This document shows positions 46,524-53,062 of a DNA stretch of 64,000 nucleotides, piece after piece. The notes below the pieces were generated by a model that saw only the letters and a program-made list of their open reading frames with translations, was not told the DNA's origin and did not search any database. Source of the DNA: Pratylenchus scribneri (lineage: Eukaryota > Nematoda > Chromadorea > Rhabditida > Pratylenchidae); NCBI GenBank assembly GCA_030063045.1, contig JAQSEB010000200.1:1-64000 (forward strand). The letters run 5' to 3'. Every line of letters starts with the position of its first letter. Position 1 is the stretch's first letter. Position numbers and translations under genes: made by a program.

Positions 46524-47311
46524 CGCGGGAAGACGTTTCAGTGCCGCCAGTTCAGTGCCGCCGTTTCAGAGCCGCCGTTTCAGTGCCCGCCGTTTCAGAG
46601 CCCGCCGTTTCAGTGCCCGCCGTTTCAGTGCCGCCGTTTCAGTGCCCAGCCAAAAGGGGGACGTTTCAGTGCCACATATATTTTTATCGTAATTAAGCAT
46701 ATAAGATTTATAAATGTGTCATGTATTAAGTACCATTCGACTCCTCTCGATGAGCTGAGTTCGAATCTGCAAAAATTTTCTGCCGGAGGTCGCATAGAAA
46801 AAAAAAGTTACAATATAGTAAAATTTGGAAAAGTGAAGGGTCCCCCCTATGGGTCGAAACCTGAAAAAATTTTGAAATTTTTCCTTGGACAAATTATAGT
46901 TCAATCGACGCGTCTCGATTAGAGAAGCTCGAATCTGCCATCAGTTTCTCATAAAACCTAAAAATATAAAAGTTATGGCCATTTATAATTTCACTTTTAG
47001 GGGTAGGATTAGGGATTTTGGGCTAGGGTTAGGGTTATGGTAGGTTTGGCATGGGTTCTAGGGGCTAAGGGATAGGGATATGTAAGGGTTAATATAAATG
47101 CATTACCTAAGCCCGGATCCCACATACTTTAGTGATTTTTACAAGGTGGCACTGAAACGTCCCCCTTTTGGCTGGGCACTGAAACGGCGGCACTGAAACG
47201 GCGGCACTGAAACGGCGGGCACTGAAACGGCGGGCTCTGAAACGGCGGGCACTGAAACGGCGGCTCTGAAACGGCGGCACTGAACTGGCGGCACTGAACA
47301 GACCCCCACCG
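46524..47311. mobile_element. Foldback-type element with tandem-repeat inverted arms
   Basis: Arms at 46537-46675 and 47146-47298 are near-perfect inverted repeats. Each is built from tandem 14-18-bp GCCGCCGTTTCAGTGCC-like units plus a shared CAGCCAAAAGGGGGACG segment; the right arm has one extra unit. The spacer of about 470 bp is AT-richer and non-coding, with GGGTTAGGGTT-like words near 47025. TTAAAATT directly flanks both outer edges (46516-46523 and 47312-47319), a likely 8-bp target duplication. No transposase is seen, so it is non-autonomous. The GC-rich arms contrast with the surroundings. Confidence 0.85.
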
Positions 47312-48625: not shown

Positions 48626-48691
48626 TTTTAAAAATAGCATTTTTTATGAGTTAAGGATGGAAATATTCGATAGGCTGGGACTACAAATAAT

Positions 48692-49138
48692 TGAGGGAAA
48701 CACACAAAAATTCTTAGACTCGTTGTTTGACTCTGTTGTTTCCCTCTTTGGTTTAAAATCAAATTCAAGGCCAATGAAATACAAATAAATTCTTTATTAT
48801 CTGTAAAGCCTCAAACTTGGGTAATTAAACCATTCAAAAGAATGAAATGTATAAAAATGACAACTAAAATGAAATGGCAATTTAATGCTAAAAGGCTAAA
48901 CGAGCCGAATATGGCTCGAAGAAAATGAATGAAATGAACAAACTAAAAATGTCGAGAAAAAGATTGGCTGAATGAAAATGAATGGATGGGCAAATCCGAT
49001 GAGAAATTGCTAAAGGGAAATTGTAATAAAGGAAATTATTAAGGAAGACGATCGCTAAAATGGGGGAAATGAAATGGGGCAAATTGTGTGAGAAAATATG
49101 ATTGTAATCTTTCCAATTTGTGGACTCTGTTCACAACA
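48692..49138 (-). repeat. 3' LTR
   Basis: 447 bp starting TGAGGGAAAC and ending TTCACAACA on the plus strand. On the element strand it begins TGTTGTGAAC. It includes the 22-nt SL1 sequence at 48810-48831 and an AATAAA about 14 nt downstream on the element strand. Confidence 0.95.
48810..48831 (-). other. Exact nematode SL1 leader inside 3' LTR
   Basis: On the minus strand these 22 nt equal the canonical SL1 exon (starts GGTTTAATTACC, ends AAGTTTGAG). It is followed by GCTTTACAG, not by a GT donor, so this is not an SL RNA gene. Confidence 0.95.
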
Positions 49139-49169
49139 CTCCCCAAAAACGATTTGTTGGCCCTCTTCA

Positions 49170-51950
49170 TCAATCCATTGAATCATCCATGAAGATTGGT
49201 GCCGGATTGTTCCATCGTCTTCGTGCGTCGATTCTGCCACCCCGTTGACGCCATTGTCGATGCAATGCATGAGGCCGCCTATCCGCCGTTTGCCTATATT
49301 CAATTCCCTCTTCAATTCTTCCATGGCGTCCAAGGATGCCTTCTTGGTCCAAATTAATATTTGGATTTATTAATATCGCCTCATTAGGCAGACTTTCTTT
49401 TTGCTCATATTTTGCAAGCCCTTTCTCATTCTTATCTAATTCTTCAGCGATTAATATTGCCACCATCGATTTGACAGTTTCGGCTCTTTTCTTCTTTTCA
49501 ATTCTATTATTGCTTTTCAATTCAAGCAATTTTGCTTTTTCTCGATTCAACTTTGTTGAATTTGTTTTCAAACTATGGGCTATAGTGTGTTTAAGCCTTT
49601 TCCATAATGACAATTTTCTAATATCAATATGAAATGATTTGGCTTCAATTGTAGCCATTGCCATTTCATGCAAAATTTCCAATTCTTCTTCTTTTGATTT
49701 GTCCAATTTAATGTTTAAATTTCTTACGGTCCCTTCTTTCGACGGGTATTCCTTTTTGGCTTCCACAATAATTTTTTCTTCAATTGTTGAAGACATTATT
49801 TGTGAAATAATGGGATTTGTTTTTTGAGTGCTGGAAAAATTACCCGCTCCACTCAATATTTTTCCAACTATTGATTTGGAGATCCAAAAGCCACTTGGCA
49901 ATTGTTTTTCTCGAATTATATTGAATTCATTATAATAGTCAATTCCGATTAATAAATCCGGAATTCGACATTCTGGTGGATTGAGTTTGTTGCGTTTTAA
50001 TTCGCTTGCACTTCTCTCATCCAATTCTACCGTATTTATGGGACGCAAAATTTTGCTTGTCCTTTCTGGGTACATTATTTTGTCCCCTTCTTTCTTTGTT
50101 TTGATGCCAATTTTTGTCAATGCCATTGTAAATGTTCCTAAATTTTTACCAGCGAAGCCAGATAAGGCAATTTGAGCTGGGATTCTTGATTCTAATTGTA
50201 GCTTTTGTGCTAATTTTTCTCCAATATAAGTCCTTTCACTCATATTGTCGAAAGTTGCAAGTGCGAAAGCACTTTTCTCTGGATATTCAGGGTTAAACAC
50301 CTGAATAATTTTACTATAGAAGAGCTTTTTCTGATTTCTAATAACTCTTCCTTTCTCAATTTCTGATGAGTTTTTCGATTCGCTTTCATTTGGCTTTCTA
50401 ATGGCACGAATCAAAGATGTATGAGTATGGGCTGTGGTTTGCACTTCAGCCTTTTCTTCTCCCTCTTCTTCTTCTTCTGATTGAGGGTCTTCTTCTTCCT
50501 CTTCCTCATTTTCGGAATTGTCGGAAGTTTCTTCTTCGGCCATTTTCTTTTCTCCGAATTGGAAAAAACATAATGCCTGATTATGGCCTGATTTTTTACA
50601 AAATCGGCAATATTTTGGAGGATTAGGACAATCACTCTTTGAGTGTCCCTCCCCAAAACAACCTAAACAAAGGTTTTGTTTTTTAATGCATTCCACTCTC
50701 GCCTGTGCGGTAGGGAATTTTTTGCATTCTGAATTCCAATGAAGATTTTTTAAATCTTTACAGAATTTGCATGGCCTTGATGGCTTTTTCTTGATCATGG
50801 CTACCACTTTCTGTGTGGAAGCCTGAATTGTGGGCTTTTTTCCATTATGCCCTTCTTTTCCCTTCCCTTCTTCCTTTCTTTCTTTAGGATGGGATTGGGA
50901 ATAAATTTCTTGGACAATTTCTTCTTTTCGGACAATTGCCCTAAAATGGGTAATGAATTGGTCCATGTTCCAATTCAGTGTACCAATCTCTTCTTTCTTT
51001 AAGAGAATTTGTCGTAAAATGGGCTTGGTTAATTTCTGTTCAACCATTAGCCAATTCGAAGGTACATTTACCTCTTGACCATTTGCTTTCAGCAATTGGA
51101 CTATTCTTTCCAATTCAACTAAAAGTTTTTGATCCTCTTCGAATGATTTACTTATTTTTAGATTGATTAAATCTAAATTTAATTGTCTGATGACTGATTG
51201 GCCATCATTAAATTGATTTTTGAGTATCTCAATTGCTACATCATAATTGTCGTCATCAATTGTTCTGATGCCTGCCAAAAGCAGTTTTGCTTGGTCTTTA
51301 ACAAGACCTTTCAACTCTATTAATTTCTCAATTTTTGTAATTGCTGTATTGTCGTGAATGGCAACTTTATACAATGGCCACCATTCCGCCCATTCTGATT
51401 TGCTCCCGAAAAATGCCTGGAGCTTAAGTGGCTTAAGGGATAGTCCCTGTCTAGCCGGAGCCGCCATATTCTCTGTGGCTGCTCTTAGAGCATTGGTTTG
51501 CTCAATGGCAGCATTTCTTGCCGCTTCTAATTGCTGCATCAATAAATTTTGTTGTTCTTGACGATTTTGTTCCTCATTTGGAACAATTGCGTCCAATCTT
51601 GCCCTTATTTGGACAAATATTTGCCTCAAAGTTCTCGCCTTTGTATTGGCCAATCGAATTGTAGCTGCAGCATTTTGAGTATTTTCAAATTGGTCTTGGT
51701 CTTGGACCATAGCCGGCCTCTCTTGTGCCGAGGCTCTCTCCACAAGTTTGGACCATTGGTCCCTAACATGGGCAATTTCTTCTATTGCCATTTGAATTTC
51801 TCTAATTTCTAATTCAACTTCTCCATGAGCTTCATTAAGCTCATTAATGGTCATTGGATTTTCATCTAAAGCTTCCCTTACAGGGTTAGCCATTATTTCT
51901 TTTAAGGACGCTATTGCATCCTGTATACGATTCTTGAAACACTTGCTCAT
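49170..51950 (-). CDS. Retrotransposon gag-protease polyprotein
   Basis: 926 aa. The N-terminal ~200 residues are coiled and Gln/Ala-rich. Residues about 185-345 look like the gag region of BEL/Pao elements (LKLQAFFGSKSEWAEWWPLY). Zinc knuckles follow at about 390-460: CKFCKDLKNLHWNSEC, CLGCFGEGHSKSDC and CRFCKKSGHNQALC. A protease-like region begins near residue 565 (ATFDNMSERTYIGEKLAQ, where the usual catalytic DSG/DTG is replaced by DNMS) and is followed by DLLIGIDYY. After residue ~880 the frame runs into sequence that reads differently from pol, so reverse transcriptase onward is missing. It is intact as an ORF. The acidic stretch EEEEEEDPQSEEEEEGEE precedes the protease. Confidence 0.85.
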   Translation of the reverse strand: MSKCFKNRIQDAIASLKEIMANPVREALDENPMTINELNEAHGEVELEIREIQMAIEEIAHVRDQWSKLVERASAQERPAMVQDQDQFENTQNAAATIRLANTKARTLRQIFVQIRARLDAIVPNEEQNRQEQQNLLMQQLEAARNAAIEQTNALRAATENMAAPARQGLSLKPLKLQAFFGSKSEWAEWWPLYKVAIHDNTAITKIEKLIELKGLVKDQAKLLLAGIRTIDDDNYDVAIEILKNQFNDGQSVIRQLNLDLINLKISKSFEEDQKLLVELERIVQLLKANGQEVNVPSNWLMVEQKLTKPILRQILLKKEEIGTLNWNMDQFITHFRAIVRKEEIVQEIYSQSHPKERKEEGKGKEGHNGKKPTIQASTQKVVAMIKKKPSRPCKFCKDLKNLHWNSECKKFPTAQARVECIKKQNLCLGCFGEGHSKSDCPNPPKYCRFCKKSGHNQALCFFQFGEKKMAEEETSDNSENEEEEEEDPQSEEEEEGEEKAEVQTTAHTHTSLIRAIRKPNESESKNSSEIEKGRVIRNQKKLFYSKIIQVFNPEYPEKSAFALATFDNMSERTYIGEKLAQKLQLESRIPAQIALSGFAGKNLGTFTMALTKIGIKTKKEGDKIMYPERTSKILRPINTVELDERSASELKRNKLNPPECRIPDLLIGIDYYNEFNIIREKQLPSGFWISKSIVGKILSGAGNFSSTQKTNPIISQIMSSTIEEKIIVEAKKEYPSKEGTVRNLNIKLDKSKEEELEILHEMAMATIEAKSFHIDIRKLSLWKRLKHTIAHSLKTNSTKLNREKAKLLELKSNNRIEKKKRAETVKSMVAILIAEELDKNEKGLAKYEQKESLPNEAILINPNINLDQEGILGRHGRIEEGIEYRQTADRRPHALHRQWRQRGGRIDARRRWNNPAPIFMDDSMD

Positions 51951-51959
51951 TTTCTAATA

Positions 51960-52200
51960 TTTTATATGGCAATTTTTAGAAATTTCTTTTTGGAATAAAT
52001 GGCAATTTATTAGAAATTGCTTTTTGGAATAAATGGCAATTTATTAGAAATTGCTTTTTGAAATAAATGGCAATTTATTAGAAATTGCTTTTTGGAATAA
52101 ATGGCAATTTATTAGAAATTGCTTTTTGAAATAAATGGCAATTTATTAGAAATTGCTTTTTGGAATAAATGGCAATTTATTAGAAATTGCTTTTTTGGAA
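51960..52200. repeat. 34-bp tandem repeat in the retroelement leader
   Basis: About seven copies of a 34-bp unit containing GAAATTGCTTTTTGGAATAA and ATGGCAATTTATTA, between the 5' LTR and the gag start (upstream of the ORF on the minus strand). Confidence 0.92.
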
Positions 52201-52254
52201 TTTTTATTTCCCAATTTTTCTTTTAACCACACCTTCTTTTTGATGAGGACAAAA

Positions 52255-52430
52255 GAAATGGCCAATTTTGCTCCAACCGAAGGTCACTCGGCAAAAAGGC
52301 ACAAATGAATGATGAAAATGGCCAATTGCTCCAACCAATGAGAGGTACTCGGCAAAAGGCAATGACGAAATGCGAATGAAGATGGCCAATTTGCTCCAAC
52401 CAATTAGAGGCACTCGGCAAAAAGGCTTAT
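52255..52430. repeat. Three ~60-bp direct repeats in the retroelement leader
   Basis: Three diverged copies, each with GGCCAATTTGCTCCAACCAA followed by GAGG-ACTCGGCAAAAAGGC, immediately inside the primer-binding site. Confidence 0.85.
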
Positions 52431-52432
52431 TA

Positions 52433-52444
52433 GCAGGGTCGCCA
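52433..52444 (-). other. Putative tRNA primer-binding site
   Basis: TGGCGACCCTGC on the minus strand, two bases from the 5' LTR. It starts TGG as expected for pairing with a tRNA CCA end; the primer tRNA was not identified. Confidence 0.7.
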
Positions 52445-52446
52445 CG

Positions 52447-52893
52447 TGAGGGAAACACACAAAAATTCTTAGACTCGTTGTTTGACTCTGTTGTTTCCCT
52501 CTTTGGTTTAAAATCAAATTCAAGGCCAATGAAATACAAATAAATTCTTTATTATCTGTAAAGCCTCAAACTTGGGTAATTAAACCATTCAAAAGAATGA
52601 AATGTATAAAAATGACAACTAAAATGAAATGGCAATTTAATGCTAAAAGGCTAAACGAGCCGAATATGGCTCGAAGAAAATGAATGAAATGAACAAACTA
52701 AAAATGTCGAGAAAAAGATTGGCTGAATGAAAATGAATGGATGGGCAAATCCGATGAGAAATTGCTAAAGGGAAATTGTAATAAAGGAAATTATTAAGGA
52801 AGACGATCGCTAAAATGGGGGAAATGAAATGGGGCAAATTGTGTGAGAAAATATGATTGTAATCTTTCCAATTTGTGGACTCTGTTCACAACA
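52447..52893 (-). repeat. 5' LTR
   Basis: 447 bp, apparently identical to the 3' LTR by eye. It carries the second SL1 copy at 52565-52586. On the element strand the SL1 begins at LTR position 308 and is followed by AATAAA, which would place it at the start of the R region if the RNA begins there. Confidence 0.95.
52565..52586 (-). other. Exact nematode SL1 leader inside 5' LTR
   Basis: The same 22 nt as in the 3' LTR, with no GT splice donor after it. It lies about 615 nt upstream of the gag ATG on the element strand. Confidence 0.95.
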
Positions 52894-53062
52894 TAATTCC
52901 CAACCAAAAAATTAAATTGGAAAGACCACAATAATCATTTTTAATTGTCAAAAACGAATTAAGATTATTTAAATAGAATGGAACTGAACATTTCATTTAC
53001 ATTTATCTATCATATCAATTAATAATATTTGTCCTTTCCCATTCTTCTTCATTCATTTGTTG

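Follow-up and report, generated by a model that had tools for sequence, protein, structure and literature searches.

The 64,000-nucleotide (nt) stretch of the nematode Pratylenchus scribneri analyzed here (contig JAQSEB010000200.1, positions 1 to 64,000; hereafter the window) contains a short retrotransposon of the BEL/Pao type, in which each of the two long terminal repeats (LTRs) carries an exact 22-nt copy of the nematode spliced leader SL1. Exact SL1 copies were also found in the LTRs of several other BEL/Pao families of the same genome. The reading we prefer, with a probability of about 0.6, is that SL1 constitutes the first bases of the repeat region R of these LTRs and derives from trans-spliced element RNA that was reverse transcribed. 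The original prediction, made from the window alone, had reported SL1 in both LTRs and placed it at the boundary between the U3 (unique 3′) and R regions; both copies are exact, the two LTRs are identical, and the placement is backed by the position of SL1 and by joints between families. Of the two origins it had offered, reverse transcription of a trans-spliced genomic RNA is now the better supported, and an SL1 built into the transcribed element is a possible present-day state.

Exact 22-nt matches to SL1 were searched for in the 227 Mb assembly containing the window and sorted by the bases that follow, which gave 227 copies: 68 followed by A, C or T, 37 by GA, GC or GG, 26 by GTC or GTG, and 96 by GTA or GTT. 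One of the 26 GTC/GTG copies (L127) has a context of the spliced leader RNA (SL RNA) type, and two of the 96 GTA/GTT copies (L095 and L096) belong to LTRs of the window family. The copies were thus divided into 132 outside the SL-RNA-gene context and 95 inside it, where 14 distinct contexts were read for the latter and the rest were sorted by the bases after SL1 alone. Among the 132, 118 contexts were read, and 117 of these resemble the LTR contexts of seven groups, W, A, B/E, C, D, F and G, where W is the family of the window element and each group was assigned by the resemblance of the SL1 flanks. The 14 unread copies comprise 13 inside LTR matches and one, C188:76887, outside them. All four group H LTRs read have an SL1 altered at its first base. 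The sole unassigned copy of the 118, L117 (C164:287376-287798), is an exact SL1 without a recognized LTR context, and may represent another element or the retrocopy of a trans-spliced mRNA. No SL1 was found in viral and prokaryote sequence collections.

The elements with SL1-bearing LTRs show characteristics of BEL/Pao elements, namely a gag-protease with DUF1759 and DUF1758, a pol with Peptidase_A17, and 5-bp target duplications. There are 42 same-strand SL1 pairs 1–16 kb apart, and spacings of 2.6, 3.4, 3.6–3.8 and 12.6 kb recur among them. In 18 of the 24 pairs compared, the best block covers 395–1015 nt at 98.2–100%, including L041/L042 and L051/L052, two pairs separated by about 30 kb whose copies may belong to different elements; of the other six, two represent a tandem array at 99.8% and four are partial or dominated by repeats (L071/72, L073/74, L081/82 and L088/89). 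The 2.6 kb family also forms a tandem array at L017-L019 (C15:1306940-1312172), in which three LTR copies are spaced exactly 2616 nt apart. Target duplications of 5 bp were read by eye at the window element, at L063/L064 and at three group A elements. DUF1759 is present in W, A, B, D and F; outside W, the gag pieces matched PF03564 alone and are 26–32% identical to the window gag. The Pao pol domain (PF05380, Peptidase_A17) is enclosed by 17 of the 18 SL1 pairs spaced 9–13 kb, with open frames of up to 3,697 amino acids (aa), and these 17 elements belong to groups A, B and G.

In the families in which the LTR was measured (A, B, C, D, E and W), SL1 begins 306–844 nt into the LTR and ends 120–226 nt before its end. 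An AATAAA-type signal lies within about 20 nt after SL1 in W, A, B/E, C, F and G, and none was seen so near SL1 in group D. This location is where the R of an LTR should start. For the window element, AATAAA had been placed about 14 nt downstream of SL1; the signal is present, at a distance of 11 nt. Between groups, the identity of the LTR flanks is near background (medians of 0.52 and 0.50 in anchored alignments), and SL1 is identical.

Related copies were collected by searches with LTR sequences, taking the best 40 of 45 candidates for W, the best 40 of 47 for A, and 41 rows from 40 of 57 scored candidates for F. It had been proposed that the idea would fall if related copies lacked SL1. Among the best 40 of the W matches, 39 span the site and 36 of these have exact SL1, while the three others are near matches, of which two carry only substitutions (one and two, respectively) and the third a deletion together with a substitution. 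Among the best 40 of the A matches, 35 have exact SL1, and one of the other five was read, an LTR at 73% identity to the query in which SL1 has a single substitution. In group A, two LTR pairs that match the query at 96–98% identity are without exact SL1 (C4:386770 and 397945; C188:86163 and 98829), and a Pao pol sits between the C188 pair. For F, 28 of the 41 rows have exact SL1; ten of the 13 others span the site without exact SL1, and the three read are two pieces of one LTR from which the site is deleted and one row that ends before the site. One candidate for an SL1-free ancestral F LTR (C1, L151) was rejected, since the site appears to have been deleted between two ATTTTG repeats. Upstream of four SL1-free BEL gag loci, the best SL1-like scores were 13–14 of 22, which is noise, in regions where the LTR was not clearly reached in all cases.

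The LTRs of different families are joined at SL1. As regards groups F and G, all four combinations of a U3 of the F or G type with an R-U5 (R and unique 5′ region) of the F or G type exist. L101 follows G at 95 of 97 informative sites to the left of SL1 and F at 80 of 88 to the right; L106 follows F at 71 of 89 to the left and G at 58 of 86 to the right; and L109 follows a relative of A at 94 of 108 to the left and A at 63 of 68 to the right. In a mosaic scan of 45 non-window LTRs, 13 were scored as mosaic with the joint at SL1, and 0, 1 or 3 at each of ten other joints. A looser count of discordance was dropped for stricter rules, because truncated copies produced many pairs at all joints. 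The joints at SL1 fit the trace expected from strong-stop transfer between the RNAs of two families.

The base preceding SL1 was compared among close pairs of LTRs, where two group D rows (L060 and L100) were sorted with W by their first four bases. In the non-window families, 49.5% of 107 close pairs differ at position −1, which is the most variable of 100 upstream positions; the mean difference at −9 to −100 is 4.6%. A variable joint between U3 and R is to be expected at the point where strong-stop DNA ends.

The sequence CCCAAGTTTGAGTTTGAG, which consists of the SL1 end and an extra TTTGAG, occurs at 32 sites, comprising 9 in A, 3 in B, 2 in C, 11 in D, 3 in F and 4 in H. Thirty of these sites were read, and the remaining two lie in the second LTRs of elements already read; none has an SL-RNA-gene context, and A, B/E, C and F also have copies without the unit. 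SL1 contains CCCAAG/TTTGAG, where the slash follows an inner AG, and trans-splicing of SL1 to this AG would therefore insert precisely the 6 nt in question. In group D, AAA precedes SL1, so that AAAG/GTTTAATT would be a second acceptor. L060 and L100, 33 kb apart on C77, contain three tandem SL1 copies with a 27-nt period and two TTTGAG units at the end, and these arrays (SL1, TTTGAG, GTTTAATT and so on) are consistent with splicing at both acceptors. The joints between families, the variable base at −1 in the non-window families and the TTTGAG units in six groups are thus three signs that fit an RNA 5′ end at SL1.

In the proposed mechanism, trans-splicing by the host would replace the 5′ part of the element RNA by SL1. 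Copying of the SL1-headed RNA would produce minus strong-stop DNA ending with the SL1 complement, and SL1 would be joined to U3, so that both LTRs carry it. Any RNA starting with SL1, whether trans-spliced or transcribed from there, would then match the 3′ end perfectly for the first strand transfer, and SL1 would thereby work as the leading part of R. The U3 of one family could be joined to the R-U5 of another at SL1 because the common 22 nt would let strong-stop DNA land on the other's RNA. A trans-splicing origin of the LTR-borne SL1 is likely, and its position and the joints between families support SL1 as the start of R; we infer the 5′ end of the RNA, the trans-splicing of the packaged RNA and the use of SL1 in strand transfer. 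A further step, in which the BEL/Pao families depend on trans-splicing, acquiring a fresh SL1 in each cycle that guides strand transfer and serves as a common site for the exchange of U3 and R-U5, is proposed tentatively and is rather doubtful.

Several observations weigh against this reading. SL1 is a minority trait that BEL elements as such do not need. Of 263 pol candidates, 150 were scored, and 130 of these lack an exact same-strand SL1 within 13 kb, while 17 lie between two SL1 copies and three have SL1 on one side. Of 467 gag candidates, 150 were scored, and none has exact SL1 within 6 kb upstream, although the SL1-bearing gags score lower and fall outside the best 150. In close pairs of W, the neighboring bases are as invariant as SL1 itself; SL1 is therefore not specially conserved inside W, and the strong case lies between groups. 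W also shows no variation at −1 to −4. Much of the signal at −1 is one polymorphism of group F, with variation in A, B/E and G too, and the downstream positions +4 and +5 are also raised, to 28% and 16%. TTTGAG units are present in none of 29 W contexts. AG directly precedes SL1 in none of 81 non-SL-RNA contexts, and therefore the present-day acceptor would be the AAG or GAG of SL1 itself (AAAG/G in D); such acceptors are weak sites by consensus. The gain of TTTGAG could instead be slippage between two AGs. The element pair L137/L138 (C174) differs by one TTTGAG unit, which is a sign of change after insertion, and L045 has a 20-nt partial repeat of SL1 that is not explained by an AG acceptor; these two cases show that slippage-like changes do occur.

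The joints are subject to similar reservations. The 13 mosaic matches do not equal 13 events, and most of them are parents made recombinant-looking by L101 and L106, while the match of L045 is an artefact of its tandem SL1. The exceptions in L106 include one block at each far end (all 18 on the left and 22 of 28 on the right). L109 was not scored as mosaic at SL1 and was so scored at +60, and under a stricter rule L106 was the only non-window LTR retained at SL1, with none at the other joints. W is uninformative in the scan, where odd single copies give 16 matches at SL1 and 17 each at −90 and −100, and each mosaic was assessed in a single LTR of its element. L105 and L149 (C114) are LTRs 2.6 kb apart that have a common U3 end and differ in TTTGAG and R-U5, a sign of recombination after insertion. 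Because some elements (C114 and C174) changed after insertion, DNA-level conversion is a possible source of the joints.

The main competitor is a hard-wired leader, in which SL1 was captured once or a few times, transcription starts at its first G without present trans-splicing, and selection, acting on the start site or on translation, maintains the sequence. This reading, which we regard as unlikely, agrees with the lack of AG before SL1 in the 81 contexts, with AT-rich TATA-like stretches seen by eye 20–35 nt upstream in several families, and with the W LTRs, which keep GAAT before SL1 without TTTGAG (except L054, grouped by its R, which ends in TGAT); group H likewise retains SL1 with a changed first base. 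However, the TATA-like stretch varies within W (TATACA, GTACA and ACTCA), splicing at the inner AG more readily explains why six groups have the 6-nt unit in common, and selection would have to hold 22 exact bases in groups whose flanks no longer resemble each other. A single capture in one BEL/Pao family, passed on by template switching or recombination at SL1, would account for the mosaic LTRs jointed at SL1, which suggest transfer between related families, and it is compatible with SL1 as the start of R. We consider it quite improbable as the full account, since a receiver needs a prior SL1 or homology, and the distant groups W, A and D have no other recognizable likeness around SL1.

It is very improbable that the LTRs carry SL RNA genes or pseudogenes, or were inserted into such genes. 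The window SL1 is followed by GCTTTACAGATAATAAAG and not by a GT donor and the SL RNA body. The lack of GT after SL1, which had been used to set it apart from an SL RNA gene, is true for the window and is not general, since SL1 is followed by GT in LTRs of groups C and F, which is the point in favor of this explanation. Nevertheless, SL1 in the LTRs is followed by a short tract and, in most groups, AATAAA instead of the body GTACTT..., and the upstream block AACGCATCTGCAATTTG of the printed SL-RNA-gene contexts is absent from the LTR contexts. A scan with Rfam gave no match in the window and only U4 snRNA in ten loci with SL RNA or LTR-borne SL1, where the lack of matches at the LTR loci is weak and non-discriminating evidence because the SL RNA loci scanned gave none either. 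The U4 snRNA gene lies at L012:2037-2173 among SL RNA genes. Chance or an assembly artefact, for which nothing was found in favor, has practically no probability: as had been predicted, a chance match is negligible, given 0 matches with up to 3 mismatches in 100 shuffles of the window, 0 matches to the reversed pattern in every genome search, and the many families and loci involved.

The features of the window element are listed in Table 1. Its span had been given as 48692..52893, which is nearly right; by eye the element starts one base later. The LTR pair shows 100% identity over 300 nt in one comparison and over 441 nt in another, and within 3 mismatches the window has no SL1-like site beyond the two LTR copies. 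The gag frame matches the profiles PF03564 (DUF1759; E = 3.3e-16) and PF05585 (DUF1758; E = 1.1e-7). Because no pol matched inside, the element is taken as a short, dependent member of the BEL/Pao type that would need pol in trans. A protein search with gag residues 150–360 gave two matches among 1159 candidates, both from Mytilus edulis, and no nematode relative. Groups A and D have the motif TGGCGACC inside their LTRs as well. Related elements may also possess the 34-bp tandem repeats, judging from repeat-rich matches in L071/L072, L084/L085 and L088/L089. ARAGORN detected nothing in the window. Near the element and outside its limits, a large foldback (46537-47298) consists of 110-nt arms that are 100% complementary, with CACTGAAACGGCGG-type repeats and 542 nt between the arms.

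Table 1. Coordinates of the retrotransposon and its parts in the window.
Feature	Position	Strand	Basis
BEL/Pao-type LTR element, short, without pol, 4.2 kb	48693..52893	(-)	ends by eye from sequence; LTR identity
5-bp target duplication AATTA, both flanks	48688-48692 and 52894-52898		by eye
5′ LTR, TGTTGTG...CCCTC	52448..52893	(-)	by eye and LTR comparison
3′ LTR, identical to 5′ LTR	48693..49138	(-)	by eye and LTR comparison
Exact SL1 in 5′ LTR, putative start of R	52565..52586	(-)	exact search; position relative to other families
Exact SL1 in 3′ LTR	48810..48831	(-)	exact search
AATAAA in 5′ LTR, begins 11 nt after SL1	52548..52553	(-)	sequence
AATAAA in 3′ LTR, begins 11 nt after SL1	48793..48798	(-)	sequence
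TGGCGACC just inside 5′ LTR, probable primer binding site	52437..52444	(-)	sequence
34-bp tandem repeats, leader between 5′ LTR and gag	51939..52244	(-)	7 overlapping reference-length copies, spacing 34, repeat family D1
gag open frame, 926 aa, no pol match	49170..51950	(-)	DUF1759, residues 180-314; DUF1758 protease-like, residues 551-701

The original prediction had called either origin a new link between trans-splicing and retroelements, which is too strong, since SL1 next to Pao elements was reported in Brugia malayi in 2020 (PMC7181701). According to the accessible part of that report, B. malayi has 120 SL1 copies outside SL RNA genes, and half of these (60) are within 1 kb of a PAO element; occasionally two same-strand copies flank one element, and the authors infer that the leader was added to expressed PAO RNA, which was then integrated. 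The two cases are alike in having exact SL1 outside SL RNA genes and near Pao, and the same origin is proposed for both; in P. scribneri the copies outside the SL-RNA-gene context are 132 of 227. The arrangement described for B. malayi, with same-strand exact SL1 copies close to the two ends of a Pao element, is found here in the 42 pairs, 17 of them with pol inside. In contrast, that account, as far as it was available to us, does not place SL1 in the LTRs at R and does not contain the exchange at SL1, the TTTGAG units or the variable base at −1.

In dinoflagellates, relicts of the leader DinoSL occur in retrogenes, where multiple leaders record repeated rounds, according to the available text of PMC6050394. 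There too a trans-spliced leader became genomic by reverse transcription; however, the cargo is cellular mRNA, whereas here the leader stands in element LTRs at the expected start of R. The RNA of Cer1, a Ty3/gypsy element of Caenorhabditis elegans, is likewise trans-spliced to SL1. In the part of that report at hand (PMC3315495), SL1 was on the 2.4 kb spliced RNA only and was not found on the 8 kb RNA, which speaks against trans-splicing of genomic RNA as a general feature. The accessible portions of PMC3156134 and PMC4054857 contain nothing on SL1 in LTRs, and no report of SL1 at R in LTRs was found in the full-text literature searched, in which subscription journals are little covered and some sources are partial. 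Compared with BEL/Pao elements in general, the present ones are a minority, most scored pol loci of this genome being without nearby SL1.

These results indicate that a host leader, normally added after transcription, has become a fixed and seemingly working part of the LTR in several families. They also show that counts of exact SL1 overstate the number of SL RNA genes, as more than half of the copies in this assembly lie outside that context. If SL1 is the start of R, trans-splicing would be a part of the element cycle and no barrier to it, and SL1 would be the common joint where families trade their regulatory halves.

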